Shown in pieces: positions 2,130 through 34,675 of a stretch of DNA of 51,220 nucleotides. Each line of letters begins with the position of its first letter. Within the stretch, counting starts at the first letter, position 1. The notes below the pieces were generated by a model that ran no database searches, was not told the origin of the DNA, and was given only the letters and a program-made list of their open reading frames with translations. The stretch lies in IMG/VR virus record IMGVR_UViG_3300005096_000113, positions 1 to 51,220 of that record, one strand, 5' to 3'. The position numbers were made by a program, and so were the translations under genes. Source of the DNA: a virus.

Positions 2130-2348
2130 ATGAAAAGCAATAAAGCTAAGCATGACATTATCGCTATGATTAACCGAGTCGCCAGTCTTGTTGATGCTGT
2201 TACTATTTCCAGCAAATACCATACCACTTTAAATGAGATGGCCGAGGAGTCTAAGAAGCATGCCGGTTATGACTGGGAAGTTTCTAAGCGCGGGACTAAG
2301 ATATACTATAGAAACGTATTAATAAGGTTTTCAACTAATGGAAAATAA
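2130..2348 (+). CDS. Hypothetical protein (72 aa)
   Basis: Not recognised. A small basic protein with a helical-looking N-terminal half and a C-terminal segment YDWEVSKRGTKIYYRNVLIRFS that looks like a short beta hairpin. AAAGGAAAGG precedes the ATG. Its last codons overlap the start of the exonuclease gene by 11 bases, so the two are translationally coupled. As first gene of the early operon it may be made very early. Function cannot be inferred. Confidence 0.65.
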   Translation: MKSNKAKHDIIAMINRVASLVDAVTISSKYHTTLNEMAEESKKHAGYDWEVSKRGTKIYYRNVLIRFSTNGK

Positions 2349-3414
2349 AAACATAAAAGAAATTATTATCACCTCACTTGATGAGCCTACTGATGATGGT
2401 AATCGGTCTCATTTGGGATTTTCGGAGATAGGTAAAGATGCTCGACTGATATGGCTTAAATTTAGATGGTCTTTTTCAAAGCTAATTACCGGTAAACAGG
2501 AGCGAATATTTTCTGTTGGCCATTCACTTGAATCCGTAATTATTAATCAATTAAAGCGAAACCTTAATATTGTTACTGAGGTTAATGGTAAGCAGATAAG
2601 CTATTCGTACCTATCTGGCCATGTTGGTGGGTCTCAAGACGGAGCTACTTTAATTGACAACGAATGGTATTTAGTTGAGATAAAAACATCTTGCCATAAT
2701 GTTTTCTTAACCGCGAAAAGAAAGAAATTGATTGAATGGAACCCCGGATACTATACCCAAATGCAATGCTATATGGCGTCAGGGAAATATAATAATGGAA
2801 TCTTTATTATCATTGATAAGAACTCAGGTGAGTGCCATATAGAGGTCATTGCCCAAGATCCGATGATACTTAGCGCGTCATTAGATAAGGCTGAAGCGAT
2901 ATTCTCACACCATATTCCAGAATCATCATGGCGGTCAAGATCAAATTATGAGGCAAAGTTTTTAAGCCAGATAGATCAGGAAATATACTGGGGTGACAGA
3001 ATACCTAAACCTAATTGCCGTAATTGTAAGCATGTTGAAATAATTAATGATGGAAAAAAAGAAGGCGGGTGGAGGTGTAATATGTATAATAAAAACGTTC
3101 CCTTAAGCTTCCAAGGTGTAGGATGTGATCGTCACGTTTTTTTTGAAGACTTTATTCCATTTGGCAGGCATAAAGAATATGATGAGTGTTACGACATGGG
3201 AGATGTGTTAGTATTTAATTCATCAGCTAATTTATCAATCGGTGCTAACCGCGCAGAAGTACTTGAGCTAACATCGAAAGAGATACATAAAATATCAAAT
3301 AATGATGTTTTCCTGCCAATGAATAAGCCTGCCCTTAATAACTATTTAAACGGACTTAAAAACATAAAAGATGTGTTCCAATCTGATATTATCACGGATG
3401 ATAAAATAACATAA
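2338..3414 (+). CDS. PD-(D/E)XK exonuclease, Cas4/RecB-like
   Basis: 358 residues. The nuclease core is visible: GHSLE (Glu about 65), GSQDGAT (Asp about 101), VEIKTS (Glu 114 and Lys 116) and YYTQMQCYM (Gln about 141), the order of a RecB/YqaJ-type exonuclease. A C-terminal set of Cys (PNCRNCKH, then RCNMYNK, then GCDRH, residues about 225-265) resembles the Cys cluster of Cas4/AddB-like nucleases and could hold Zn or an Fe-S cluster. Such phage proteins resect DNA ends to give single strands for annealing; a DUF669 protein lies just downstream and a Sak4-like ATPase in another operon, which fits. A regulatory or structural C-terminal 90 residues is unassigned. Confidence 0.8.
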   Translation: MENKNIKEIIITSLDEPTDDGNRSHLGFSEIGKDARLIWLKFRWSFSKLITGKQERIFSVGHSLESVIINQLKRNLNIVTEVNGKQISYSYLSGHVGGSQDGATLIDNEWYLVEIKTSCHNVFLTAKRKKLIEWNPGYYTQMQCYMASGKYNNGIFIIIDKNSGECHIEVIAQDPMILSASLDKAEAIFSHHIPESSWRSRSNYEAKFLSQIDQEIYWGDRIPKPNCRNCKHVEIINDGKKEGGWRCNMYNKNVPLSFQGVGCDRHVFFEDFIPFGRHKEYDECYDMGDVLVFNSSANLSIGANRAEVLELTSKEIHKISNNDVFLPMNKPALNNYLNGLKNIKDVFQSDIITDDKIT

Positions 3415-3429
3415 TGAGGCTAAAGTTTT

Positions 3430-3780
3430 ATGAATAATGAAACGCTGCATGCGAATCGAATTGAAAAAGTAATTATTTCACAGAAACAATTAAAAAGGAC
3501 GGACAAGACATTATTAATGGAGCCCGGTGTTTTTAAAATAGATAGGGAGCATAAGACAAAGTACCTTATATTTTTCGTTGATAATTCCGTTATTGCCACT
3601 ACTTCAATGGTACAGGCAGTTGATTATTGCATCACTTATGTCCGAGGGATGGCAGATTCCCTTATCTTTTCACCAGATAGCTCTGAGTACGCTAAACTGC
3701 ATCGCGTACAATCTGGGCTACTAAAAGCAAGAAACAATTTAATGAAAGCGCTAGGGAAGCGACATATAGCTGTTGTTTAA
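3430..3780 (+). CDS. Hypothetical protein (116 aa)
   Basis: Not recognised. It starts 15 bases after the exonuclease stop, with GAGG about 10 bases before the ATG. The sequence is basic at both ends with a predicted beta-rich centre (KYLIFFVDNSVIATTSM). No signal peptide or membrane segment. Its place between the exonuclease and the DUF669 protein suggests a DNA-metabolism accessory role, which is inference from position only. Confidence 0.65.
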   Translation: MNNETLHANRIEKVIISQKQLKRTDKTLLMEPGVFKIDREHKTKYLIFFVDNSVIATTSMVQAVDYCITYVRGMADSLIFSPDSSEYAKLHRVQSGLLKARNNLMKALGKRHIAVV

Positions 3781-3803
3781 TTTTCCATAAAAAGAGAGAT
3801 AAA

Positions 3804-4304
3804 ATGAGCTTATTACCTGATATTAATTTTAATGACGTTCCTGATAGTAATATTATCCCTGAAGGGAAGTATTGCTTGACTCCTGTTAAATGGGAGATTA
3901 AGCCAACGATTAATAAACTTGGCGAGATTTTATGGGTAACGTTCCAAGTGAGGAATGGAGAGCATAAAAATAAGCAGTTTTCTTATAACTACAATGCTCG
4001 CAACAAAAACCCAGAAGCAGTCCGCATTGGCATGATGGATCTGAAGCGACTCTTGCGAGCTTGCGGCCATACTGGTGATATTGGGCCATTAACTAAGGAG
4101 CTTCTTGATAGCATCATTGGCCAGCTTGTTGAATGCGAGGTTACCGTTGAAAAGCAAGTTGGATACGAAGATACTAACAAGATAAAGAATCCAAAGCTTT
4201 TCAAGCAATCAGGACTTAATGAGCGCAAGCCGGTAATCCAAGCTGAGCCAGTAACAACGGATGACGATTTAGACGCAACAATCGAATCTGATGTTCCATT
4301 TTAG
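3804..4304 (+). CDS. DUF669-family protein, probable ssDNA-binding partner
   Basis: 166 residues. The pattern IPEGKYCLTPVKWEIKPT near residue 18, a middle block in which KNKQFSYNYNARNKNPEA precedes a helix MMDLKRLLRACG, and a late N-K-I-K-N-P-K-L-F segment fit the DUF669 family, phage proteins commonly encoded next to RecA-like annealing ATPases, exonucleases or helicases and thought to bind single-stranded DNA. It has an acidic C-terminus (DDDLDATIESDVPF) ending in a hydrophobic PF, like the partner-recruiting tip of bacterial SSB. That SSB-like tail is a direct observation and supports the role. The ribosome site AGAGAG precedes the ATG. Confidence 0.75.
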   Translation: MSLLPDINFNDVPDSNIIPEGKYCLTPVKWEIKPTINKLGEILWVTFQVRNGEHKNKQFSYNYNARNKNPEAVRIGMMDLKRLLRACGHTGDIGPLTKELLDSIIGQLVECEVTVEKQVGYEDTNKIKNPKLFKQSGLNERKPVIQAEPVTTDDDLDATIESDVPF

Positions 4305-4315
4305 GGGAAATAATA

Positions 4316-4822
4316 ATGAGTAAATTTATTTCAGGTGACATTATCCTTACACGTTTTGGTACAATACCCGGTGTTGGATGTTATGGCCGATTAGATTATT
4401 CGTTCCATGATTTATCGGTTGGCCATGTATTAACTGTTGAAGCGCCATGGGTTAATAATACGCCAAACATTTCTTGCATACCGACAGGAACCTATCAGTT
4501 ACTTCCCCATCCTTTTGATGAGAATAAAATCCGACTCATTAGCTCTGCGTTGGATGTTTATATGCAAGCAAGCGACTCTGAGTATATTAGAGCAAAAATG
4601 GGAGGCCTTATTGCTCGCTGGGGGATCAATATCGAGATTGCCAATGTGCCATCGCAGATAGAGGGGTGCATCGCGCTAGGGACCAAGCATGACGTCTTAA
4701 GCATTAAGGGTCATCGCCCTCAATTAGGCGTATGGGGTGCCCGTGTTGCCATTGAGGAGTTTATTGGGTATCTGGACAAAGAGAAGCTATCTAATGGCGA
4801 GTACTCAATAATTATCGAATAG
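4316..4822 (+). CDS. DUF5675-family protein (168 aa)
   Basis: The layout LTRFGTIPGVGCYGRL, then VLTVEAPWVNNTPNISCIPTG, then INIEIANVPSQIEGCIALG matches the DUF5675 family of phage and bacterial proteins. In typical members the last block carries a His and a GC pair that resembles the active site of L,D-transpeptidases; here the Cys (about residue 120) is kept but the His position appears to be Glu, so activity is uncertain. AGGGGAAA precedes the ATG. A terminator follows at 4844. A diverged relative lies at 5813-6412. Cell-wall activity is inference only. Confidence 0.7.
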   Translation: MSKFISGDIILTRFGTIPGVGCYGRLDYSFHDLSVGHVLTVEAPWVNNTPNISCIPTGTYQLLPHPFDENKIRLISSALDVYMQASDSEYIRAKMGGLIARWGINIEIANVPSQIEGCIALGTKHDVLSIKGHRPQLGVWGARVAIEEFIGYLDKEKLSNGEYSIIIE

Positions 4823-4843
4823 CAAGTAATCACTTAACAACAG

Positions 4844-4868
4844 CCCTACCATCCGGTGGGGTTTTTTT
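4844..4868 (+). terminator. Intrinsic terminator after the DUF5675 gene
   Basis: CCCTACC (4844-4850), a 4-base loop and GGTGGGG (4855-4861) pair with one G-T, followed by seven T. It is almost identical to the terminator at 5710-5733, pointing to a duplicated 3' end. Confidence 0.9.
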
Positions 4869-4986
4869 ATGCCTACCATAAGTCAATGATAAGTTTAATA
4901 TAGGATACTTTATGGAAGTTGCAGTTAAAGGTAATCCTCTTTAATCTACTTCGTTATTTTCAATTTTTTAATAAGGGTATAAGATA

Positions 4987-5685
4987 ATGAAAAAATTTAT
5001 AATTCAAGCCGGTATAGTAGCTTCAGCTTTAGCATTAAATGTGGCAAGCGCCTCGTTAATCCACAGTGTGAATTTGGATTTTGAAGGTGAGTGGCTTTAT
5101 GAATACCCAGGGTCTTCTGTTGTAATTTCTACTAGCTTATTAAATGGATTTTATAATGGCGGAACTGACTCATTAGGTCTGTCTGGTACTGATTTAGGAG
5201 TTGATTCTACTGGAGTAGCCAAAAATGTAATTGGCGTTGGGAACCCGTTTAAATCACCTGGTGGGGGTGGGGTAGGTTTCTCTATCCCTATCAACGGCCC
5301 TGCTATTTTTAGTTTTGAGAGCGGATTCGATTCAATTGAATTTGATTCAATGGCATGGAGAAGTGCGCAATTTGAAATTTATAGCGAAGCAAATGCATTA
5401 GGTGATTTGATTTTTTCAGGAATTACAGCTTGGTCAAACACTTTCTGCTATAAATCCGCGAGATATCAAAGGTCTTGTTGGGAAGAGAATAAGGTTGATA
5501 TTTTAGATATAGCTAAATCCATAAAATTTTTACCGCCTAAAGGTTATGCTTTATTTTTTGACGATATAACCTTCAGTAATTCAAAGGCTCATGATGTATC
5601 TGAACCTAAATTATTTTTATTATTCTTGCTCTTATCCATTTTTATTATCTTTACCACTAAAAGGCGAGTAGTCAGCCATTATTAA
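4987..5685 (+). CDS. Secreted protein with PEP-CTERM-like sorting tail (232 aa)
   Basis: Signal peptide at the N-terminus (MKKFIIQAGIVASALALNVASA). The middle is a Gly/Ser-rich beta-sandwich-like domain of about 180 residues with a FDDITFSN segment, common in PEP-CTERM proteins. The C-terminus has SEP (about residue 206), a hydrophobic span KLFLLFLLLSIFIIF and a basic KRR end, the tripartite layout of an exosortase recognition tail, although the canonical PEP is SEP. Two Cys (FCYKSARYQRSC) may form a disulphide. Such proteins are exported, processed by exosortase at the inner membrane and linked to extracellular polysaccharide in Gram-negative bacteria. A second example is at 6971. Unusual cargo for a phage. 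Confidence 0.7.
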   Translation: MKKFIIQAGIVASALALNVASASLIHSVNLDFEGEWLYEYPGSSVVISTSLLNGFYNGGTDSLGLSGTDLGVDSTGVAKNVIGVGNPFKSPGGGGVGFSIPINGPAIFSFESGFDSIEFDSMAWRSAQFEIYSEANALGDLIFSGITAWSNTFCYKSARYQRSCWEENKVDILDIAKSIKFLPPKGYALFFDDITFSNSKAHDVSEPKLFLLFLLLSIFIIFTTKRRVVSHY

Positions 5686-5709
5686 ATAACAAATAACACT
5701 TAGCAATAA

Positions 5710-5733
5710 CCCTACCATTCGGTGGGGTTTTTT
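5710..5733 (+). terminator. Intrinsic terminator after the first PEP-CTERM-like gene
   Basis: CCCTACC (5710-5716), a 4-base loop, GGTGGGG (5721-5727) and six T. It matches the 4844 terminator except in one loop base. Confidence 0.9.
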
Positions 5734-5812
5734 AATACCTTCTTAATATTCAGCTTGTATATTCTTTATTCAGAGTAGCCATTTCGGTTGCTCATTTTTT
5801 GAGGAAATATTT

Positions 5813-6412
5813 ATGGAAAACGAAACAAGAAAAGGTCCGCCGGTTAATAACCCAATGTGCATTGAGCTTCATCGAACGAGTCGAGATGCCTATATGTATT
5901 ACGGTGAGCTTAGGGTCTATCATAGCCCGACTGAAAGCCTGGTTTATGCGACGGTAGCAAGCGCTAATCATACAAGGGATAATAAGACAGCCGCGCTGCC
6001 AGTAGGTGGGTATTATTTAAACCGAGGGGAGCATGATGGGCTTAATATTAACCTATTAAGCGATAAATTCTATACTTTTCGACTGGGTTTTGGTTTACCT
6101 ATCGCGGCGGCTAGAAAAGAAATAAAAACGTTATCTAATCCACCTCTCATACGGTGGGATATCTCATTAAAACCATTTCCGTCAAATTTTAAATGTAGCC
6201 ACTTATCATTGGAGCATTTAAAAGGTGGCATTGGTGTCGCTATGACTCATGAGGATATTGTGGCAGGCGGTATGGTTGCTTGGCGATCAGGAAACCGAGC
6301 CATGGAAGAAATAATCATAAACCATAGCCATATGATGGAGCCTCAAGGTGGAGGGCGTAAAAATGATGTAAGTACAACAATGATACTCGGCATCTACCCT
6401 CTCGAAGATTAA
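5813..6412 (+). CDS. Diverged DUF5675-like protein (199 aa)
   Basis: Not firmly recognised, but the block LIRWDISLKPFPS followed by LKGGIGVAMTHEDI aligns with IARWGINIEIANVPS then IEGCIALGTKHDVL of the protein at 4316-4822, and the N-terminal halves share an L-x-R / G-E-L / TVAS...LPVGGYYL order. The GC pair is GG here, so the putative nucleophile is lost. It may be a non-catalytic paralog, for example a structural or binding protein. It stands alone between terminators at 5710 and 6435 and starts with ATG after GAGGAAA. Paralogy is my alignment by eye. Confidence 0.5.
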   Translation: MENETRKGPPVNNPMCIELHRTSRDAYMYYGELRVYHSPTESLVYATVASANHTRDNKTAALPVGGYYLNRGEHDGLNINLLSDKFYTFRLGFGLPIAAARKEIKTLSNPPLIRWDISLKPFPSNFKCSHLSLEHLKGGIGVAMTHEDIVAGGMVAWRSGNRAMEEIIINHSHMMEPQGGGRKNDVSTTMILGIYPLED

Positions 6413-6434
6413 CTGTAAATCTCATCATAGCGAG

Positions 6435-6460
6435 CCCGCACTGAGAATGCGGGTTTTTTT
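6435..6460 (+). terminator. Intrinsic terminator
   Basis: CCCGCA (6435-6440), a 7-base loop, TGCGGG (6448-6453) and seven T. It closes the gene at 5813-6412. Confidence 0.92.
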
Positions 6461-6970
6461 CGCCTAAAACTTTTTGACAACAGCTTAACAAAAAAATTTC
6501 ATAAAAAAATTCTATATCAAAAATAAATTCTTCTTATACCTCTTATATCTCTCTCATATATATCTTAACCTGTCTTACTAGAAATAAACGCGGAGGGTAT
6601 ATAAGGGAAGAAAGCTATTAGCAGTAGGTAGAAGGATAGTAGGATTTTTCATATTTACTGATAAGGTGGTTCCGACCCTGGAGGGCCACCTTTATTTATC
6701 AATAATATGTTAATCCTATCATCCTTTTATCTACATGTCAATACCTTCCTTTCTCTACACCCTCCGACCTAAAACCAATCAAAACCAATCAAATCAGAAT
6801 ACTAAAATCAAAATCTCTTAAAAAATTAAAATAGAAAAAATTAAAATAAAAAATCTAACCTGCCTAAGCCTTCCTTAATAATCCCGCCGTATACTAGCTC
6901 CATCAGATCAAGGCAAGGCAGCCAAAAAGGATCTGGTTAACTTCTAACCTTAATAAAGAGAACTTAAAAA
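6461..6970. other. Long non-coding region between 6461 and 6970
   Basis: About 510 bases with no convincing gene on either strand. It starts with a TTGACA at 6474-6479 that lacks a clear -10 at normal spacing, then a pyrimidine-rich stretch (about 6520-6578), then the large inverted repeat at 6591-6766, two copies of AAAACCAATC (6772-6791), and an A-rich tract of lysine-codon-like runs without a frame. A TATACT at 6890-6895 may be a -10 box for the gene at 6971. The region is a candidate replication origin or structured RNA locus. Confidence 0.6.
6591..6766. repeat. Imperfect 176-bp inverted repeat
   Basis: Arms of about 79-80 bases face each other. The outer ends are CGGAGGGT (6591-6598) and ACCCTCCG (6759-6766); intermediate segments GAAGGATAGTAGGATT and AATCCTATCATCCTTT pair with small shifts; the inner stem is AAGGTGG (6663-6669) with CCACCTT (6686-6692), and the loop itself contains CCCT-GG-AGGG. 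Mismatches and small bulges are scattered through both arms, so this is an old or selected structure, not a recent copy. Confidence 0.8.
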
Positions 6971-7693
6971 ATGAACAAAGCAAAATTATTCACTTCAGTT
7001 GCCACCGCCGCTCTTCTTGGTTCAGCTAGCTTAGCTTCAGTTGCAGCGCCGATTACGGTTGAAGGGATTACTTGGGATCCACAGAGCTTTATCGACTTTA
7101 GCGCTCAAAATGTTATGTTTGTGAATGATTTATCAGCCGTTGGCGATGTTGCATCCGGCATGGGTCAAGTATCGGCCATAAATGGGTCGTCAAACTTCGG
7201 TAGCAACGAGTTAACCTATATCTTCGGGGATTATGAGATCGCCACCTTAAATGGCAATGACGCGACATTCAGTGGTGGGTGGGTAAAGTTCTATTCGGAC
7301 GCCAACACGAACTTCGACTTTACCGATATGTCTACGGCTTCCGACGGTACCTTGTGGCTCTCATTAGAAGCGGCGGACCTAAATGGCAACTCGCTCATTG
7401 GAACACTTGCCAGTTTAAACGTGGACGGGAACGCTCAAGGGCTCCTAAACGCAGTGGGTGGTGCCGCATTAGCTAACTTTGATACAAACACTCGCTTAAA
7501 TGGAGCTGACTTTGAGTTCACAGCAAGCTGGAATCAGTTCCCTAACGGTGGATCAACGGTAGACGGTTTAGCTCATGTAGGAACCAGTGAGTTAATCGGT
7601 AACTCAATCCCTACCCCCGCCCCATTAGCCATGATGCTCCTCGGCTTAGGTATGGTTGGCTTCTCGATGAGAAAATCATCTAAAAAAGGTTGA
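6971..7693 (+). CDS. PEP-CTERM-type exosortase substrate (240 aa)
   Basis: A signal peptide (about residues 1-25, ending SLASVAA) precedes a beta-rich, Asn/Gly/Asp-rich domain with no basic clusters. The last 27 residues read PTPAPLAMMLLGLGMVGFSM followed by RKSSKKG: a Pro-containing motif, a short Gly/Leu/Met membrane span and a basic tail, the classical PEP-CTERM organisation with PAP in place of PEP. The protein should be exported, recognised by a host exosortase and placed in the envelope or released into the polysaccharide matrix. It has its own long upstream region and a strong terminator at 7728-7759, so it is a separate transcription unit. Confidence 0.8.
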   Translation: MNKAKLFTSVATAALLGSASLASVAAPITVEGITWDPQSFIDFSAQNVMFVNDLSAVGDVASGMGQVSAINGSSNFGSNELTYIFGDYEIATLNGNDATFSGGWVKFYSDANTNFDFTDMSTASDGTLWLSLEAADLNGNSLIGTLASLNVDGNAQGLLNAVGGAALANFDTNTRLNGADFEFTASWNQFPNGGSTVDGLAHVGTSELIGNSIPTPAPLAMMLLGLGMVGFSMRKSSKKG

Positions 7694-7727
7694 ATCTTAG
7701 GTAAGTAATCAACAAGCCTTCGTGGGC

Positions 7728-7759
7728 AAAAAGCAGGCGGCTAACCCCGCCTGCTTTTT
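7728..7759 (+). terminator. Intrinsic terminator, strong
   Basis: GCAGGCGG (7733-7740) pairs with CCGCCTGC (7747-7754) around a 6-base loop, extended by A5 with T5. The run of T ends only a few bases before the ribosome site of the next gene. Confidence 0.92.
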
Positions 7760-7774
7760 ATTTTGGAGAAAAAT

Positions 7775-8401
7775 ATGGATTATATCTTAATCAGAGAGGC
7801 GATAGAAAACCGGGCAAACCTAAATATGGACTGCCCGAGATCTGAATGTAAAAGTCATCACTTGTATGCGGACATTCAATACAGTAAAGAAGTATGGGTA
7901 TGTAGTGATTGCGAGACAATTTTTAATAAAGAATACCTTGTTGGGGCTCTTAACCAACATATAAAAAATGAAAATTACCAGATGGATAGCAGGAGTATCT
8001 TAGCAAAGAAAGAGTCAACTCAAGGGGTTGACACTTTAAATGCTAATGATTTTATACATAATGACTGTTGCATTACCAAACCTAAAGAGAAAAATGAAAA
8101 AAATATGAATAAGTCAATGATGAAAAAAATGATGATGATGAGCATGATGGGGCAAGGTGGCACGGGAATGGCCAATAATTTATTACCGATGATGATGATG
8201 AGCGACGACGGCGATGACGATGACAGCAAATCATCAATGATGATGCTCATGATGATGCAAGCAAATACCAAGCAAGCAAATACTCAACCAAATAGCACCG
8301 CAGATCAATCGTCTCTTATGCCGCTCATGATGATGATGGATGAGAAAGATAGCTTCGATATGGAATTCATGATGATGACAGCCATTGCCAAATATGACTG
8401 A
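7775..8401 (+). CDS. Met-rich, Asp-rich protein with N-terminal zinc ribbon (208 aa)
   Basis: The start is ATG at 7775, six bases after GGAG; a TTG at 7763 upstream would include the ribosome site and is not used. Residues about 20-50 form a zinc-ribbon pattern (CPRSEC, later VCSDC). The C-terminal half has repeated Met blocks (for example MMKKMMMMSMM, LLPMMMM, SSMMMLMMM, PLMMMM and EFMMM), alternating with Gly, Asp and Gln/Asn segments, including SDDGDDDD. Met-rich and Asp-rich repeats can bind Cu(I) or other metals, and low-complexity Met runs can mediate hydrophobic assembly; both are inferences. No family recognised. Confidence 0.75.
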   Translation: MDYILIREAIENRANLNMDCPRSECKSHHLYADIQYSKEVWVCSDCETIFNKEYLVGALNQHIKNENYQMDSRSILAKKESTQGVDTLNANDFIHNDCCITKPKEKNEKNMNKSMMKKMMMMSMMGQGGTGMANNLLPMMMMSDDGDDDDSKSSMMMLMMMQANTKQANTQPNSTADQSSLMPLMMMMDEKDSFDMEFMMMTAIAKYD

Positions 8402-8546
8402 AAACGAACGGCAGTCTTTATCTGAGGGTAATAAGTCGGCGGCGGTCAAGTCGTATATCTCTCGTCGAATGTCGCCAGGACTAATCCCTACCCAATTTTC
8501 TAACACGAACAGCGAAAAAAGCGCAAAAGTAACTGAATCGACTTAA
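8394..8546 (+). CDS. Possible small coupled protein (50 aa)
   Basis: The ATG at 8394 overlaps the last 8 bases of the Met-rich gene and the frame runs to TAA at 8544-8546. The peptide is polar and Ser/Thr/Asn-rich with SYISRRMSPGLIPTQF in the middle. There is no clear ribosome site, so expression would depend on coupling. It could be a chance frame. Confidence 0.35.
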   Translation: MTENERQSLSEGNKSAAVKSYISRRMSPGLIPTQFSNTNSEKSAKVTEST

Positions 8547-8548
8547 GG

Positions 8549-8577
8549 TTTACATTAAGTAGGGGCTAAGGTATAAT
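8549..8577 (+). promoter_or_regulatory. Sigma-70-type promoter
   Basis: TTTACA (8549-8554), exactly 17 bases, TATAAT (8572-8577): five of six and six of six consensus matches. The predicted start is near 8584. It drives either the short RNA ending at 8651 or, by read-through, the gene at 8680. Confidence 0.8.
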
Positions 8578-8583
8578 ACATTA

Positions 8584-8651
8584 TATGTAATTCCTATGCC
8601 CTCCCCGGCCTAGCCCATGCCTTATGAAATAATAAGCATGGGCATTTTTTT
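8584..8651 (+). ncRNA. Candidate small RNA or attenuated leader (about 68 nt)
   Basis: Between a near-consensus promoter and an intrinsic terminator there are only trivial frames (an ATG followed at once by TAA, and a five-codon frame). The 5' part carries a pyrimidine-rich CCTATGCCCTCCCCGGCC that could pair with purine-rich ribosome sites; the 3' part is the terminator hairpin with seven T. This arrangement is typical of a free-standing sRNA, but since a ribosome site follows 15 bases later it could also be a transcription attenuator for 8680-9078. Confidence 0.5.
8613..8651 (+). terminator. Intrinsic terminator of the candidate small RNA
   Basis: GCCCATG, one bulged C and CTTAT pair with ATAAG and CATGGGC around a short A-rich loop; a seven-T run follows at 8645-8651. 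Confidence 0.88.
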
Positions 8652-8679
8652 AATCTCAATAAAGTAGGAGCAACTCGTT

Positions 8680-9078
8680 TTGAACCTAGCTAGTTTAATC
8701 CATGAATTAAAAATCAGAGAGAATGCGTACAAAAACATTAAAAAAAGAACTCCCTATAGCGATGAGGAAATCAAGCAAGAAGCCGATAAGTATCAGCATC
8801 TGTCAGATTGGCAAAAAGGGCATCGGAAAACATATATGTCTGCGTGGCGACAAGCTAGGGTGGCCGAGTTCTCCAAGCATATGACAAAGAAAGCTCGTGA
8901 GAATATACCTAGAGAATATGGTAAGGGAATGTCGCCTGATGAAATTCAGCTTGAAGCAAATAAGTATAAATACCGAAGTGATTGGCAGCGAAAGTCAAGA
9001 GCCAGCTACTTAGCCGCCTTTCATTCCCTTGGCATTGATCACTTCGCTAAGCATATGGTGAGAAAGCCAATAAAGTAA
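8680..9078 (+). CDS. Protein with two copies of a phage repeat ending in HM (132 aa)
   Basis: The start is TTG at 8680, nine bases after AGGAG; no in-frame ATG lies near. The protein is a tandem repeat: YSDEEIKQEADKYQ-x2-SDWQ-x9-SAW-x6-EFSKHM at residues about 25-71, and SPDEIQLEANKYK-x2-SDWQ-x9-AAF-x6-HFAKHM at about 83-128. Repeats of the form E-x-F/W...Y-x-A...HM occur in phage proteins next to homing-nuclease domains; here no nuclease domain is present. Very basic, so DNA binding is plausible. It converges on the minus-strand gene at 9104. Confidence 0.7.
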   Translation: MNLASLIHELKIRENAYKNIKKRTPYSDEEIKQEADKYQHLSDWQKGHRKTYMSAWRQARVAEFSKHMTKKARENIPREYGKGMSPDEIQLEANKYKYRSDWQRKSRASYLAAFHSLGIDHFAKHMVRKPIK

Positions 9079-13658: not shown

Positions 13659-14207
13659 TTAGAAACGATACTGGACGTTGAGTGAATGAGCAATATTATC
13701 AATCGCGTCGCTATTGTCTGCGCCAGCCCAAAATCCAGTGGTATTGCTCTGCTCTTGAAAGTACCATTGCATGGATGGTCGATAAGATACTGACACATTT
13801 TTGGTAATGTTTGCGCCTACTTCAAGCTCAAAGGTGGCTGTATCATATTTCCATGTATGGTTTGAAAATGAAAGTCTATTCTCATTTCTTAATATCCCTG
13901 CGCCAAGAAATACTTTTTCTGATGCCATTCCTTTAGCGGTAATGCCGAATGAGAAAGCCCTTACGTCAAGATCAGTTTCACGATAAGTGCTGGACACTCT
14001 AGATACTCTCATTGTTGGGCTAATAGTGAACCGATCACCAATGTCAAAATTCAAACTAACGCCAGCTCTCGGCCCAATTAAAGTGATATTTGAATTTGAC
14101 TTATCGAGAATCAACCCAGTCTCTAGTGAGAAACTAGGCGCTGCGAAAGATGATCCACTGATAACAGAGGCAGAAACAATAGCGGCAGTAATTATTGATT
14201 TGTTCAT
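13659..14207 (-). CDS. Outer-membrane beta-barrel protein (182 aa)
   Basis: Signal peptide MNKSIITAAIVSASVISGSSFA with likely cleavage before APSF. The mature part alternates hydrophobic and polar residues in about eight strands (for example FSLETGLIL, RAGVSLNFDI, FTISPTMRVSRV, VFLGAGILR, FELEVGANI, VSVSYRPSMQWYF) and ends in LNVQYRF, with the C-terminal Phe that marks outer-membrane barrel proteins for the BAM machinery. The size fits an 8-strand OmpX/Lom-like barrel. In lambda, Lom is encoded near tail genes and changes the lysogen surface. Here it lies between members of a paralog family. GAGAAC precedes the ATG. Confidence 0.8.
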   Translation of the reverse strand: MNKSIITAAIVSASVISGSSFAAPSFSLETGLILDKSNSNITLIGPRAGVSLNFDIGDRFTISPTMRVSRVSSTYRETDLDVRAFSFGITAKGMASEKVFLGAGILRNENRLSFSNHTWKYDTATFELEVGANITKNVSVSYRPSMQWYFQEQSNTTGFWAGADNSDAIDNIAHSLNVQYRF

Positions 14208-19972: not shown

Positions 19973-21648
19973 TGACTTCTATTCCCACTCCTTATGCTTA
20001 TCAGCAAAAAGTAATTGATGACTCGATAGCGGCTATTACTTCATCGGCAGACTCATTTGTTGTAAACGCAGCGCCCGGCTCAGGGAAGAGTGTTATATTT
20101 TCATTAACTATTATGGAGTTAATCAGGCTATTCCCGAAAATTAATATATTAATTATTGCCCACAAACAAGATCTAATTAAGCAAGCCGAGAATCATGTGC
20201 TTATTGCTAATAAAGATATCCCCGTCGGTGTTTTTTGCGCGAGTATGAATCGATTTGAGCAAAAACAGATAACGATTGGCTCAAGAGAAACGCTACGCTC
20301 TCGGATAAAAGACCTTGGCCGATATGACGTAGTAATGATTGACGAGTGTCATAAGGTTGATTTTGGGCCAAAGGATAAGCCCTCCTCCTATCAAAAGATA
20401 ATGGCAGCCCTACGAGTAACGCGTCCGGCTATCCGTCTCATTGGCTACTCGGCCACTCCTTACCGACAAGGAACGGGCAACGTGTACGGCCCTGGGAAGT
20501 TTTTTGATAAAGCGATTTGCAATATATCCATTAAGTGGTGCATGGATGAGGGGTATCTATGTAATGTCAGGTCAACGCCCACCACTAGTGAAGCCAATAT
20601 TGACACCTCTCAGATAAAACTTGTTGCTGGGGACTTCAATAAAAAAGAACTCGGGATCGCCGCGGCAAAAACGGAGTTAGTTAGGCGAATGATTGATGAT
20701 TGGCAGATAAATACACGGAGAGCAAATAAGCAATGCACCATGTTCTTCTGCTCAGGTATAAAGCACGGGGAAATGATCACTGAAGAGCTGTCACGCCTTG
20801 GATATGCTGTGCCGTTCGTTACTGGTGAGACGCCAATAAAGAGGCGTGACGAGATACTCAGGCAGCTATCCTTGGGGCTTATTCATGGCGTTGTTAATTA
20901 CGGTCTATATACAGAGGGGACCGACATCCCAAGAATTGATTGTGTTGTTATCGCTCGGCCCGCAAAGGTGTTGTCTCTTTATATCCAGATGGTTACTAGG
21001 GTTGTTCGCCTCTTCGAAGGGAAGACTTACGGACTACTGCTTGATTACGGCGGATGCATCCAGCGCTTTGGGCCAATTGATTGTGCGCTACCTGAAGAGC
21101 CCAAGCAAAAAGACTCACGCGTACAGCCATGCCCTAATGATGAGTGCAAAGAGCTTGTCAGTATCTATGCGAACAAATGCAAGACATGCGGGCTAGTCAT
21201 TAAAGAGGTAGCAAAAAAATGCAGCAACTGCGGCGCAAAGAACTTTCCGTCCGCAAAGGAATGCAAAGAGTGCCAGTATCTTTTTTTTGACCATAGTTTT
21301 ACATCCGATGGCGATATTGATATCCTCTCTGATCGGAAAATAACAAGACCTGCTGCTTTCCATAAGGCCTACCATAAAAAAGCAACCCGTCGATCTTACG
21401 TGAAGGTAATATTTAAAGACACAGAGAATGGTCAAGAATATAGGAAAAATCTATATCATGCCTTTCAAGGTATTGCTGGAATTATTGCCCGTAAGGAATT
21501 GGCAAGATTGATAGGTAAGAATAGATGCTACACATGTGAACAGGTTGTTACCGCAATAACGGAAGCCAACCCTAGCATTAGATCAGTAACGGTGAACCCA
21601 GACTATACGGTTCATTCATTTGAGCTTAACCGAGGAACAGAAAAATGA
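19972..21648 (+). CDS. SF2 DEAD/DEAH-type helicase with zinc ribbons (558 aa)
   Basis: Motif I APGSGKS near residue 35, motif II DECH near 124, motif III SATPYR near 159, motif VI QMVTRVVR near 338. Two zinc-ribbon pairs follow at about 386-436 (CPNDEC with CKTC, then CSNC with CKEC). A C-terminal domain of about 110 residues is unassigned. Related phage helicases remodel replication forks or recombination intermediates (UvsW/RadD-like). Its position behind the BRO-N-like protein and ahead of the ligase fits replication. AGGAAG precedes the ATG; the stop overlaps the next start as ATGA. Confidence 0.85.
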   Translation: MTSIPTPYAYQQKVIDDSIAAITSSADSFVVNAAPGSGKSVIFSLTIMELIRLFPKINILIIAHKQDLIKQAENHVLIANKDIPVGVFCASMNRFEQKQITIGSRETLRSRIKDLGRYDVVMIDECHKVDFGPKDKPSSYQKIMAALRVTRPAIRLIGYSATPYRQGTGNVYGPGKFFDKAICNISIKWCMDEGYLCNVRSTPTTSEANIDTSQIKLVAGDFNKKELGIAAAKTELVRRMIDDWQINTRRANKQCTMFFCSGIKHGEMITEELSRLGYAVPFVTGETPIKRRDEILRQLSLGLIHGVVNYGLYTEGTDIPRIDCVVIARPAKVLSLYIQMVTRVVRLFEGKTYGLLLDYGGCIQRFGPIDCALPEEPKQKDSRVQPCPNDECKELVSIYANKCKTCGLVIKEVAKKCSNCGAKNFPSAKECKECQYLFFDHSFTSDGDIDILSDRKITRPAAFHKAYHKKATRRSYVKVIFKDTENGQEYRKNLYHAFQGIAGIIARKELARLIGKNRCYTCEQVVTAITEANPSIRSVTVNPDYTVHSFELNRGTEK

Positions 21649-22674: not shown

Positions 22675-23718
22675 ATGAGTCTTAACACAGTAAAGCTTTT
22701 CAAGTTGCCTAATAGAGAGTGGACTATAACCCCGAATTATAACGACTTAAGTTATACTGTCGAGTATGGAATTATAGACGGCGAACAGCAATTAGCTATT
22801 ACGAAATGCAAAGACGTTAATGATTTGAATGAAAAAATATGGGCAAGGGTCACTAAGCAAATTGATATCAATGACTACCATTATAATCTAGAGCAGAGTT
22901 GCTCACGAATATCGCCGATGCTTGCCTTGGATTACACTAAAGTCCCCCACCGCCTTTCATTCAGAAACAGCGTTGCCTGCCAGCCAAAATTGGACGGCTT
23001 AAGATTGACTTATGGCAAGTCACATAAGCACAAAAAAGTGGACGGCTTCCATAGCCGTGGTGGAAAATCTCGGTATCACTTGGAGCACCTCACTGAAGCA
23101 TCCGCCAATCTACTTAAGGAGGTAAGGAGAATGGCATCCTGCGAGGCGCTTGATGGGGAAGTATGCAAGCATGATGTGTCACTTCAAAAAATAAATAGCG
23201 CAGCCCAAGTAACGAACGACTTAACGCCACAGCTAGAGTACCATGTTTTTGACCTGGTTATTTTAAATATGCCATTCTCTGAGAGGTATGCGATCCTCTG
23301 GGCAGCGATATCCAACCTGGCGGACAGTGATGGCCTTAAGTTGGTCCCGTGCGACTATATTGAATCAGAGGAGCAGGTTATCCCACAGCATAATATCTAT
23401 CGCGCTAGCGGCTACGAGGGCATCATGCTGCGTGATGCAAACTCAGACTACGTTCTCGGGAAGCGAACACCAGGGCTTTTTAAATACAAAGAGTTTGATC
23501 ATTGCCAGGCTGTTGTATTAGGGATTATGACCGATAAAAATGGGCTTGATTATTACCTGGCTAGAAGTCTAGATACAGGCGTAAATTTCGAGGTCGTCCC
23601 AAAACTTCCTGCTGAAGATCGGGAAAATTTATCACATATGACCGGGAAGGAAGTTACGGTTAAATTTCAGAACCTATCGGATGCTGGAGTGCCAGTGTTT
23701 CCTGTTTGCGTTAACTAA
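22675..23718 (+). CDS. ATP-dependent DNA ligase with N-terminal WGR-like domain (347 aa)
   Basis: Residues about 10-60 (SYTVEYGIIDGEQQLAITKC) look like a WGR domain. The nucleotidyltransferase core has motif I KLDGLR with Lys 105 as the adenylated residue, motif III ALDGEVCKHD, motif IV EGIMLRD and motif V GLFKYKEF. The C-terminal 70 residues fit a small OB fold. It would seal nicks in phage DNA replication and recombination. GAGGAAA precedes the ATG. Last gene of the rightward operon, converging with the late operon. Confidence 0.88.
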   Translation: MSLNTVKLFKLPNREWTITPNYNDLSYTVEYGIIDGEQQLAITKCKDVNDLNEKIWARVTKQIDINDYHYNLEQSCSRISPMLALDYTKVPHRLSFRNSVACQPKLDGLRLTYGKSHKHKKVDGFHSRGGKSRYHLEHLTEASANLLKEVRRMASCEALDGEVCKHDVSLQKINSAAQVTNDLTPQLEYHVFDLVILNMPFSERYAILWAAISNLADSDGLKLVPCDYIESEEQVIPQHNIYRASGYEGIMLRDANSDYVLGKRTPGLFKYKEFDHCQAVVLGIMTDKNGLDYYLARSLDTGVNFEVVPKLPAEDRENLSHMTGKEVTVKFQNLSDAGVPVFPVCVN

Positions 23719-27692: not shown

Positions 27693-28045
27693 AAAACAGT
27701 CGTTCCAATTTTTGTTGTGGCGCTCCCTTCAATTAACGGGATGACCGATCCTGAGGCGTCAGTCAGCAATAAGTCATACGTGCCTTCAGCCCAGGTCATA
27801 ACTTTAATGATAGCTTCTGGTACTCGTATATCTAAGCTGCCCGTGACGCCAAGTGGTCCTGCAATATAACCATTAGCTGTGCTTATCTCAAGGTGAACGA
27901 TAGCGCCTCCTGGTGCGTCTCGTATCTCCATCTTTGCTGTTGCTCCTGTCAAGTCCATTGGTGTTTTATCTTTATTGAGAAGCGTTAGATCCCAGATAAA
28001 GTCACTATTTAGCCTGACGGTTATATCCTTTTGAGCTGGGTTCAT
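27689..28045 (-). CDS. Baseplate/fibre attachment domain protein (118 aa)
   Basis: The sequence pattern DITVRLNSDFIWDLTLLNKD, then MDLTGATAKMEIRDAPGG, then GTYDLLLTDASGSVIPLIEG is common in short phage proteins ahead of fibre genes, a beta-sandwich thought to attach fibres to the baseplate. GGAAC precedes the ATG and its stop overlaps the next gene. Confidence in the precise role is moderate. Confidence 0.65.
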   Translation of the reverse strand: MNPAQKDITVRLNSDFIWDLTLLNKDKTPMDLTGATAKMEIRDAPGGAIVHLEISTANGYIAGPLGVTGSLDIRVPEAIIKVMTWAEGTYDLLLTDASGSVIPLIEGSATTKIGTTVL

Positions 28046-28803
28046 TATCGTTCCTGATGGAATATATTGAAGTCGCTATTGATTATCGAGTGCCGATAAT
28101 TTTCCAGGTAATGCGAACTGAAGAAGTTAAATTTAGAGTAGATTAATCTTCTGAAAGTCCCAGGGTTATATAATACACCAAATGGGGTCATTAGTAATTC
28201 ATCGCCAATATGCTTATACCCTGTAAATCTTAACGGCAAGTTTGGCACAGGGTCAGTTCCGTTGACTATTCTTAGTGTTCGATAAGCCATGTAGGTGGGG
28301 GGTCGCCACTGACCCATAAAGCGGGGGCTGCCAAACGTGATCGAATACATTCGACTCCAATCGACATTCAGTCTATAGTCTTGCTGATGAAGAATGTAGT
28401 GAGCCATTTGCGCCAAAGCGCCACCCATTGAGTGACCGCAGAAATAAATATACCTTGGGTTGTAATTATTTATCTCTCTAATTAATTGCCCTTTAATTGA
28501 GGCAAACGCCTTAAGAAACCCGGCATGCATTTGCGGAAGGCCTGGTCCAGCCCTTTCGAACTCACTATTGGCTATTGTTTTTAAATCATTTAACTTGCCA
28601 AATTCAGTCCCTCTGAATGTAACATAAACACTATCATCAACCTTCCTGACCGTTAAATAGATCCCCGTTAAAGCGCTTGAGATTGCAACTGTGTTTATGA
28701 TATTTTGCTTGATCGACTGGTTGGTAATCTGGCAAAGCCTTGATGTTAAATTTATTTTTGCATTAAGGTGATACCCGTGGTCTTGTATTATTAAGTTATT
28801 CAT
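28045..28803 (-). CDS. Class 3 lipase / alpha-beta hydrolase (252 aa)
   Basis: The class 3 lipase layout is complete: VTFRGTE at 61-67 (oxyanion region), FCGHSMGGALAQ with Ser 125 as nucleophile, GTDPVPNLP with Asp 184, and a late His (His 231 or His 238) as general base. No signal peptide. It lies in the tail operon between the tail tip and the fibre genes, so it is probably a virion enzyme; its substrate might be acylated surface polysaccharide, lipid A chains or membrane lipids. Lipases are rare in tail modules, where pectate-lyase or peptidoglycan enzymes are more usual. AAGG precedes the ATG. Confidence 0.85.
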   Translation of the reverse strand: MNNLIIQDHGYHLNAKINLTSRLCQITNQSIKQNIINTVAISSALTGIYLTVRKVDDSVYVTFRGTEFGKLNDLKTIANSEFERAGPGLPQMHAGFLKAFASIKGQLIREINNYNPRYIYFCGHSMGGALAQMAHYILHQQDYRLNVDWSRMYSITFGSPRFMGQWRPPTYMAYRTLRIVNGTDPVPNLPLRFTGYKHIGDELLMTPFGVLYNPGTFRRLIYSKFNFFSSHYLENYRHSIINSDFNIFHQER

Positions 28804-31800: not shown

Positions 31801-34675
31801 TCGTATTCCTATCCGGCTCGACCGTGTGGGTTACGTATTCAGAGTCCGCCTCTATTGTTCGCTTGTACTGGATTCGATACCGATCTACATACCTGTCGAG
31901 CGTCCTATCCCATGTTAATAAAGCTCTAGTCACTATCTTGCCTGAAGCCGATAGGATCAACTGAGCGGTCCCTGAGAACGCCTGTAGGTTTGACATGTCT
32001 TTTGGTTGAGCGCGGTCATCGGACGGCTCGACTGAGTCGGGGTTTAGTAGGTATGTGATTGAGTGATTTTCACTAAAGAGGTCTCGGGATGCAGAGCCTG
32101 GCTTGTATGATTGCTTTAGGATGTTATCAAGTGGTTGTGTCTTTGGGTAGCTCACCGGATCAACGACGAACTCTCGATCAAAAGGAGAGTACCCTTCCGC
32201 AGGGACTGGCCCATTAAGTGACGCAATAAAATTAGCTTCCGTAAGGATTGGAACGATTGAATTCCTATCAGCAAGCAAGACAATTAATGATCCTGGGTAT
32301 CCTCCACTCCCTGATCCAGCAGCTAGTTTGTTATTCAGTTCTGGGGCTGCCTTTCTCGATCCGGAAGCGCCTGAAAGATTTATCTTGCCGCTCCCCATGA
32401 AAAGACCTTTACAAAAAATAGCAAGCCCTCCGCCGCCAGCTCCTCCGCTGTACCCATTAATAGGAACGGCTAACCCTGGCTCAACACTTGGCGTCTGGAT
32501 CAGCTCTATTCGGCCGCCACTCCCACCTGGGATTCCATTAATATGAATCGGCAGACCGCCTAGCTTGCCAAGCTCTGTCGCAGCAGGATCATCCTCTATT
32601 GATAACGACAAGCCAGACGGTAGTGTTCTAACGTCAGCCATCGAAAAATCTTGAGTTACTTCGCCCGAAGTTGATAGAAAGCTCATATTAAAAACAAGAG
32701 AGTCAGTGAAGGTCTCCCTTATAATTACTCCACCTTGCCCTTCAGTGCTTCCGTAGCCTTTATCTAACCCGCCAGACAAGTCATACTGAGTCCCTCCAAT
32801 CGACCTAATATCGCCATCGAGCGTGAGCAACCCATCGACCACTAGGAGTGTATTCATTGCTTGTAAGTCAAGCGTTACGCCTGCATCAATGACTAAGTCG
32901 CCATCATGGTACCAGACGTTCCTGTCTATATTTTTTTGCGCATTCGTTATTACGACATCAGCCGTTAAATGTCCGACTGGCCCTATTAATGAATATCCAG
33001 CCAATGTATTTATTAAGGTGTAGCCACTTCGCTGGCTAGTTAAATAAGCGAGAAAGTTTGGTATCGCAATGGATGGGATTGTATCATCTGACACAAGGTC
33101 GGTTGACGACAATGTCTTTCTTGTCGAGCCAATCAGCTGGAGAGATATCCCCCCGGTCTCAAAATCATGATCGACACCAATCGTGCGAAACGTTCGATTA
33201 ATTCCTGCCTGCTCACTCTTGTCGTCAAAAATCAATTTTGACTTAACCCGAATATTATCCCCAACCTCTATCGCTGAATTACTATTGGATAGCGTTAAGT
33301 TTAATAATTGGTGCTCAGCAGAATAGACATCACGTAGGTAGTCAATGATCTGCCTAACATTGGCTGATGACGCGTTGTTGCCAGAGAGTCCTTTAAACTG
33401 GTAAAGCTCCGCTGGCTTCCGCTGATACTTACCAATGGAGTCGCTGTCAATATAATCGGTCTGCCTGGCAAACTTTCCGTCGATACCTGAATGATCCCAT
33501 TGGACATTAAACACATTCACAATCGTCGAAGTAGCATGGGTTAAATCGGAGTAGTCAATAATGTCAGGATCTTGGATCTCAACCAAAGCAGCGCTACTAC
33601 TAAGTGGCGACACAGATCTCCGTATTGATAGAGAGCCATTAGCTGTAATTAAGATGTAGCACCCAATCAATGGAAGAAGCTCTCTTTCAATAAAGGCTTT
33701 TGCGTCAGTCTCTGCCAGGCCAATAAACTCAGCCCGAATCCCTTTATCGTTCGATTGAGCCCATAGGTCGTCATCAATACCGGTAAATGAAGGCAGGTCA
33801 ACATGGATTGGGTCTACACCAGCAGACCATGCGGGTGGGATGAATACGCCTTGGTTTAATAGCGCGCCTGTGTAAAGTGCGTATATTAACTTAACAACCG
33901 GCATATCAATATAGATAAACTCAGTGACCTCAACGATATCATCATTACTTGCCCCAAGCACTTCTATCGGCTCATCATCCGTGCCGAATCTTCCCGCCTG
34001 AATTCCATCAAAGGTAGTCGCTGTTTTTGAGGTGTAAGAGAAAATCGTATCCTTTATCTTCACATAGCCTATCGTTACATTGGGATCCTTATTCCAAAAA
34101 CTGGTATGGGCGACCATCTCGAAATTAGTGGTAGTCGCCACATCGAGAGACGTGTCTCCTGGATTATAGCCTGTGATTAGCCTGGTCTTGCGCTGAGTGA
34201 ATATCGACCTTCGAGCTAATCGGTTCGTGTCTGAGCATGTGATAGAGTACTCGTTATCCATACGGGTAACTTCTTCAATGATCTGCACGCCATTAGGTAT
34301 CAGCTCGTACTGTTCAAACCCAAGCTCAGGGAAGCCCATATATATTTTTACAATTTGCCCAGAAAGAGATAGCCCGCTATTGAATTTATCACGAATTTTT
34401 TTTGATAACTGGAAGTCCTTATCAATGAATGAAAAAGTCTGGCTTCCTATCGTGGTAAGGAATTTATTCTCTTGAAGCTTTTGCGATGATCCTGATGGGT
34501 GTGAACTAATTACATCGCTATATATTGTCTCACCGTCTGGCGCTGATGCTTCTGGATGTGATGTAATATAAATTCGATCTGTGACTTGATTGCTAAAATT
34601 AATCTCAATGGTGTAGACAAACTGTTTACTCTTATCAGCGTTAATTAAGGCGAATGCCTCATTATAAATTCTCAT
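28820..34675 (-). CDS. Tail tip / central fibre protein, gpJ-like (1,951 aa)
   Basis: Residues about 1-550 resemble a J-like tail tip core (beta-rich, with IDYSDLTHATSTIVNVFNVQ and a later ITGVDHD-like block). About 570-830 is Gly-rich with a shell-like beta domain. About 900-1230 includes fibronectin type III-like domains (RALLTWDRTLDRYVDRYRIQ; GGIDVSWTASVELDHFE). Near 1350-1400 are short repeats of DSLGxIPxDNA. About 1590-1740 holds three repeats of DSTxGYSIGSxW-x8-YxA-x7-AVW. The start is ATG 34675, overlapping the preceding stop (TAATG), with AGG 8 bases upstream; TTG 34690 is rejected. It determines host binding. Confidence 0.8.
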   Translation of the reverse strand: MRIYNEAFALINADKSKQFVYTIEINFSNQVTDRIYITSHPEASAPDGETIYSDVISSHPSGSSQKLQENKFLTTIGSQTFSFIDKDFQLSKKIRDKFNSGLSLSGQIVKIYMGFPELGFEQYELIPNGVQIIEEVTRMDNEYSITCSDTNRLARRSIFTQRKTRLITGYNPGDTSLDVATTTNFEMVAHTSFWNKDPNVTIGYVKIKDTIFSYTSKTATTFDGIQAGRFGTDDEPIEVLGASNDDIVEVTEFIYIDMPVVKLIYALYTGALLNQGVFIPPAWSAGVDPIHVDLPSFTGIDDDLWAQSNDKGIRAEFIGLAETDAKAFIERELLPLIGCYILITANGSLSIRRSVSPLSSSAALVEIQDPDIIDYSDLTHATSTIVNVFNVQWDHSGIDGKFARQTDYIDSDSIGKYQRKPAELYQFKGLSGNNASSANVRQIIDYLRDVYSAEHQLLNLTLSNSNSAIEVGDNIRVKSKLIFDDKSEQAGINRTFRTIGVDHDFETGGISLQLIGSTRKTLSSTDLVSDDTIPSIAIPNFLAYLTSQRSGYTLINTLAGYSLIGPVGHLTADVVITNAQKNIDRNVWYHDGDLVIDAGVTLDLQAMNTLLVVDGLLTLDGDIRSIGGTQYDLSGGLDKGYGSTEGQGGVIIRETFTDSLVFNMSFLSTSGEVTQDFSMADVRTLPSGLSLSIEDDPAATELGKLGGLPIHINGIPGGSGGRIELIQTPSVEPGLAVPINGYSGGAGGGGLAIFCKGLFMGSGKINLSGASGSRKAAPELNNKLAAGSGSGGYPGSLIVLLADRNSIVPILTEANFIASLNGPVPAEGYSPFDREFVVDPVSYPKTQPLDNILKQSYKPGSASRDLFSENHSITYLLNPDSVEPSDDRAQPKDMSNLQAFSGTAQLILSASGKIVTRALLTWDRTLDRYVDRYRIQYKRTIEADSEYVTHTVEPDRNTTRTYIPNLADGVSYDFQIYPINIFNRRSANFLSLTHTVIGKTAAPADPTGLSALGVTGGIDVSWTASVELDHFETIVFRSPVSGGPFTEVGRTTGDTFFNPAPESVLYYYAIQFIDTTGNLSSQVGEVSARALSGFAAIQIPNVTGLHISNLPINTVEYTTPNVSFEWRRVQSPDRPSQELGAEDNGGDTGYVDPTIQGYRVRMYRPGPFIEAFLLREEQVHDERYDYTIDKNKLDNGDPIRSFSVEIRAYDQFNNLSPIPARMSVTNPISAVTEISWSITPGVQQFTVNVTAHPNDLDYLGSEIHVSTTPAFTPTAATRFGLVGSNAQQVIVDSDPSDNPLVNLATYYVKLVPYDQFELDLSNVTNELAVTLTALAVSIEWVDVGDTDGFKPENDATVGADWGTNISDSLGFIPDDNATLGADWGTNISDSLGDIPADNAAINTPLAACKDNFVSLSTAASLVAGSFIHGFSKDASPADIDATIYIKGVAVTLPRGNDFGSLGEEASIYHAGETDDGYVIYNASISPALNFTTLGATLRRTYAFARYNSGTWEYNDGNTWLPVVFSPGIDDYFVIGRGSTGNAAFGNSNGISLFQHGVTLNVFPFKSDFISLYNGPPLNNYLGVAAPVASNDSTEGYSIGSEWTFGQAHYKASSVAVGAAVWDQLNSTGLLDNLAAVAVPNISNDSTEGYSIGSRWIFGSIAYVATSVAISAAVWAVVSNPKDEIGAAVPPSVIRDSTLGYSIGSRWFFDGSVYMATDVTANNAVWVFIYNDSPDFDGYFAQEAYDNWKNDTSVIETVSINTAGSIALANGRTRFNCGGNASDGFEARRMLKSGVVPLVWTKRRRFITAVQPLQLPTGIASWSMHITTGDRLSQSATVTQWIGFRIENTASGHTIFAAYADGTTQFSTSIVTGAGVFQLSVDTILEAVVNADGSIGYSVNNGANTFLYSPPVIPVNTWTQSPDVVFEVSMDQFIVNEPFSVQLSQVKFLQYK

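Follow-up and report, generated by a model that had tools for sequence, protein, structure and literature searches.

At the locus under study, two open reading frames on the plus strand, 4987-5685 and 6971-7693, lie inside a plus-strand gene block (2338-9078) that is flanked by an exonuclease gene and by minus-strand tail fibre genes. The window, meaning the whole stretch of 51,220 nucleotides analyzed here (positions 1 to 51,220 of IMG/VR record IMGVR_UViG_3300005096_000113), is a genuine tailed-phage record, since family searches revealed the large and small terminase subunits, a portal, a head maturation protease and tail proteins as well as primase/helicase, ligase and Cas4-type exonuclease genes. 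The terminase belongs to phrog_15 and is ~36% identical to those of phages from many hosts, giving no host assignment, and an Rfam search returned zero matches. The window also encodes, on the minus strand at 13659-14207, a third exported phage protein with a signal peptide and an outer-membrane beta-barrel ending in YRF; this protein, with a match to PF13505 (E=2.3e-5) that is slightly below the cut-off, looks like a surface-conversion protein.

The original prediction described two secreted proteins with a C-terminal tail made of a proline motif, a membrane span and a basic end, and we recovered both ORFs with exactly the coordinates claimed. We then screened the ORFs of the window with fixed criteria comprising, at the N-terminus, a basic n-region, a hydrophobic core and an AxA-type site and, at the C-terminus, a hydrophobic span with proline just before it, followed by at least two K/R and no D/E. 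Only 4987-5685 and 6971-7693 qualified (2 of 52), compared with a mean of 0.004 qualifying ORFs per window in 1000 composition shuffles, which never yielded two. Strong terminator hairpins (4842-4863, 5708-5729, ~6430-6460 and 7730-7757) isolate each gene on both sides, in agreement with the claim that they are separately terminated. The hairpins upstream and downstream of 4987-5685 (4842-4863 and 5708-5729, both on the plus strand) are parts of two copies of a 44-bp repeat (4831-4874 and 5697-5740) that are 86% identical and bracket this gene, an arrangement that fits insertion of a moron beside a duplicated terminator and is possibly a trace of such an event. The other gene is preceded by an AT-rich intergenic region of 558 bp (6413-6970, plus strand), the second largest in the window, with a hairpin at ~6659-6700, and is followed by a plus-strand hairpin at 7730-7757 with a folding energy of -21.3 kcal/mol (z -4.25). 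As a single gene with its own terminator, a long upstream gap and one of the highest GC3 values of all window genes (rank 50 of 52), 6971-7693 has a moron-like anatomy; the GC3 of 4987-5685 is the lowest of all (rank 1 of 52). The gene between the two (5813-6412) has no signal peptide by the fixed criteria and no significant family match. Directly after 6971-7693 is a plus-strand ORF (7763-8401), likewise without a significant family match, that is strikingly rich in methionine and aspartate, with MMMM and DDGDDDD runs.

The product of 6971-7693 (240 aa, plus strand) begins with a signal peptide, MNKAKLFTSVATAALLGSASLASVAA (6971-7048), recognized from its sequence and by the fixed criteria, and closes with a PEP-CTERM tail, IPTPAPLAMMLLGLGMVGFSMRKSSKKG (7607-7690), in which PEP has drifted to PTP and the hydrophobic span is followed by a basic cluster (LAMMLLGLGMVGFSMRKSSKKG). 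The full-length protein matched the floc_PepA model NF033554 with 40.3 bits (E=3e-10, residues 18-237) and the PEPxxWA-CTERM model NF035944 with E=2.6e-5. With signal peptide and tail removed, floc_PepA was the sole NCBIfam match of the mature domain (E=1.9e-4, 21 bits). Twelve PEP-CTERM-type models matched the tail alone. One of them, NF035944, scored 27.8 bits (cut-off 35), and another, TIGR02595, scored 16.0 bits, the same as its cut-off of 16; TIGR02595 was not reported in the full-length search, in which the Pfam PEP-CTERM model scored 17.6 against a cut-off of 20.7. A profile built from 59 viral PEP-CTERM tails also found this tail (16.2 bits, E=0.0012). When 3380 ORF ends served as background, just one other tail lacking a literal PEP outscored it, and that one is a PEP-CTERM tail with AEP. 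The Pro-Glu-Pro motif is near-invariant in PEP-CTERM tails (PMC1569441) and is absent here, with threonine in place of glutamic acid. Cellular relatives are plasmid PEP-CTERM proteins of Skermanella (34% identity, E=3e-14), which themselves match floc_PepA; PDB sequence searches gave insignificant matches only. As the mature domain and the tail each point the same way despite the PTP, these data support the assignment of the protein as a likely PepA-like exosortase substrate of the PEP-CTERM type. Because its score of about half the floc_PepA equivalog cut-off (40.3 vs. 80 bits) falls short of that threshold, we consider it a distant relative and not a PepA equivalog. As to the prediction that both secreted domains are beta-rich, the predicted strands are compatible with it, but the AlphaFold models of the PepA-like protein (from a two-sequence alignment) and of the 4987-5685 product (from a single sequence) are of low confidence (mean pLDDT 30 and 44, respectively) and leave the fold unproven.

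A homologous gene was found in another phage, as the original prediction had proposed to look for. The homologue, 60.6% identical to the product of 6971-7693, was first recovered by a scan for the VPEP tail pattern across 2.9 million viral contigs and resides in G039 and G017, which are the same phage (99.996% identical over 49 kb). We take G039 (61,060 bp) as complete because it has a direct terminal repeat of 237 bp; its genes include those for terminase, major head protein, tape measure, polymerase, primase, helicase and an anti-repressor. The homologue (P0005) has a signal peptide of its own, MNKATLAVAGIALATSMSAVA, and a canonical VPEP tail, NVPEPASLALLALGLGLIGVSRIRSK, located at the same place as the PTP tail in the window, and it exceeds the TIGR02595 cut-off of 16 with 20.6 bits. 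In both phages, the gene is positioned near the junction of an early plus-strand block with a convergent structural block. Beyond this gene, the two phages have in common only four remote proteins (26-33%), and the terminase of G039 is phrog_38 vs. phrog_15 in the window phage; these different terminase families indicate that the gene moved between, or was acquired by, unrelated phages. Identity between the two genes at codon positions 1, 2 and 3 is 66, 79 and 37%, as compared with 61% for amino acids, which shows purifying selection on the protein. Relatives of 6971-7693 were otherwise scarce: none emerged from viral and genome collections scanned with single sequences, from the first alignment scans or from tblastn of window proteins against 50,697 phage records, and two later alignment scans yielded only the G039/G017 phage. 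Host contamination as the source of the gene was considered and rejected, given that the gene is flanked by phage genes and that the homologue is internal to a complete phage with terminal repeats.

The evidence on the other gene (4987-5685, plus strand, 232 aa), which we refer to as the orphan, is of a different kind. Its product carries a signal peptide and a tail, SEPKLFLLFLLLSIFIIFTTKRRVVSHY (5599-5682), composed of an SEP motif, a membrane span and a KRR end, thus satisfying the fixed criteria, and its low-confidence AlphaFold model places a C-terminal helix at residues 207-230. The span, however, is rich in Leu, Phe and Ile and lacks the usual Gly/Ala pattern. Neither the full protein, its mature part nor its tail matched any family or PEP-CTERM model, the tail alone having no NCBIfam hit at E<=10, and the profile of viral PEP-CTERM tails did not find it either; relatives were absent from the viral contigs (single-sequence scan) and from the 50,697 phage records (tblastn). 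The stretch FDDITF preceding the tail resembles one that we assume to be frequent in PEP-CTERM proteins. Accordingly, of the two exosortase substrates originally predicted, the reading stands for 6971-7693, which has the PEP-CTERM model matches (the tail at the TIGR02595 cut-off), the PepA-like domain and a homologue above that cut-off, and two substrates are not shown because 4987-5685 matches no PEP-CTERM model, even with its tail alone or with the viral-tail profile. Judged by its sequence, the orphan may be a divergent exosortase substrate or a plain membrane anchor, and we did not count it as a member of the family; it may yet prove to be another such surface protein, though a divergent one, beside the PepA-like protein.

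The VPEP tail-pattern scan yielded at least 120 matching stretches, indicating that such tails are frequent in viral contigs and not confined to the window phage and its counterpart. Among the matches listed, at least 66 have the full tripartite tail and at least 53 of these also have a signal-peptide-like start; the matches listed fall into two larger families (at least 18 and at least 11 members) and many singletons. We tested 20 further PEP-CTERM-bearing records for terminal repeats and found them in four, including G008, G009 and G033; PEP-CTERM contigs without a terminal repeat may include host flanks. The PEP-CTERM gene has a clear signal peptide in two of these four (G009, 20430-21233; G033, 23093-23629), while that of G008 (33915-34631) directly adjoins the gene that follows it in its strand block. 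The PepA-like family of the window and two other viral PEP-CTERM families were all absent from the 50,697 isolate-phage records, and in the limited selection of papers searched we found no report of phage-encoded exosortase substrates or PEP-CTERM proteins. We speculate, at somewhat short of even likelihood, that several unrelated phage lineages carry exosortase substrates as a general class of cargo, hijacking the host exosortase to reshape both the extracellular matrix and the aggregation of infected cells, with the window gene belonging to one PepA-like family within that class.

How might the PepA-like protein function? According to Haft et al. (2006), the tail halts in the inner membrane so that the proline motif faces the periplasm, and the exosortase EpsH/Xrt was proposed to cut there (PMC1569441). 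As predicted, a search with PF09721 found no exosortase in the window, and the same was true for 39 viral records examined, related phages included; hence cleavage would depend on the enzyme of the host. In an Aquincola rpoN1 mutant, overexpression of PepA, which is seen as several processed bands in this organism, brings back flocs, lowers soluble exopolysaccharide and raises bound exopolysaccharide (PMC9850573). On balance, we think it probable that 6971-7693 is a moron for a PepA-like matrix protein that is sorted by the host exosortase, binds exopolysaccharide and aggregates infected cells. In this scheme, the protein would be exported by the Sec pathway and retained in the inner membrane by its PEP-CTERM-type tail; a host exosortase would then cut at the proline motif, presumably even with PTP, after which the mature form would pass to the surface of the cell or to exopolysaccharide. 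By analogy with PepA of Aquincola and Zoogloea, the mature protein may tether exopolysaccharide to infected (or carrier) cells, leading to aggregation. The phage might benefit by keeping hosts and progeny close, by shielding the infected cell or by excluding other phages, possibilities that our data do not separate. In environmental Gram-negative bacteria, among them those of activated sludge, flocs and biofilms are organized by exosortase systems, and phages may alter the clumping or slime building of the bacteria they infect; should matrix proteins be provided by phages, an infection could directly move cells from a free to an aggregated state or back.

The PepA-like gene resembles pepA of Aquincola and Zoogloea (NF033554) in its signal peptide, ~190-residue domain and PEP-CTERM-type tail, as well as in standing alone as a gene, with a terminator of its own and an intergenic gap upstream. 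It differs in scoring half the equivalog cut-off, in having PTP for PEP, in being phage-borne, in having no neighboring prsT and in the pepA-type sigma-54 (RpoN) promoter, for which no -24/-12 match with up to 3 mismatches was found in 6413-6970. In common with the PEP-CTERM/exosortase system (TIGR02595, TIGR02602/PF09721; PMC1569441), there is a tripartite C-terminal signal, an N-terminal signal peptide and an expected host-encoded sortase-like partner; in contrast to that system as known from cellular genomes, a phage here carries the substrate gene and has to rely on the host for the processing enzyme. From its sequence features, designation as a phage-borne PEP-CTERM protein of the PepA-like type, rather than a PepA equivalog, is well supported, while its function is what we infer. 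The lom and bor genes of lambda are lysogenic-conversion morons which, as here, are separately terminated accessory genes for exported surface proteins. Their products are outer-membrane proteins or lipoproteins, in contrast to the predicted exosortase route and the matrix-protein relative described here.

A protein sorted in the same manner could also serve mainly to mask or alter the cell surface against adsorption of competing phages, i.e. superinfection exclusion. Lysogenic changes of the cell surface often involve outer-membrane beta-barrel proteins, and the window phage does encode one with a signal peptide (13659-14207; PF13505, E=2.3e-5); PEP-CTERM cargo in several unrelated phages would likewise fit a general surface-modifying role. 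Nevertheless, we deem this explanation unlikely, as the closest characterized relative works in flocculation and not in receptor blocking, and as no integrase was found in a search of both the window and G039. Stable lysogeny of the window phage, and with it lysogenic exclusion over the long term, is consequently no more than a possibility, although a carrier state is compatible with a missing integrase.

That the two proteins are periplasmic and held by ordinary transmembrane anchors at their C-termini, with no role for exosortase, appears to us quite improbable. The orphan, with its Leu/Phe/Ile-rich span, the missing Gly/Ala pattern and no PEP-CTERM match, would agree with such a view, as would the lack of the Glu of PEP in the 6971-7693 tail, but several PEP-CTERM models recognize the latter tail, and the 60% homologue carries a canonical VPEP tail at the corresponding position; a plain anchor therefore suits the orphan much better than the PepA-like protein. 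Finally, the GC3 of both genes at the extremes of the window (ranks 1 and 50 of 52) might reflect a recent and accidental capture of a host matrix gene with no benefit to the phage. This notion is already disfavored and seems to us highly improbable, given the homologue in a second, unrelated phage and the conservation of the protein while identity at third codon positions has fallen to 37%. We favor the PepA-like matrix protein sorted by a host exosortase as the function of 6971-7693.

Some additional features of the window phage were also observed. Two stretches near its start (1-175 and 1285-1397) contain 42-bp tandem repeats in which the sigma-54-like motif TGGCAY-N5-TTGC recurs on alternating strands, and tandem repeats also occur close to the ends of G039. 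The tail gene cluster of the window phage includes, on the minus strand at 28045-28803, a gene for a class 3 lipase (PF01764, E=6.8e-20), a 29% relative of which is present in G039.
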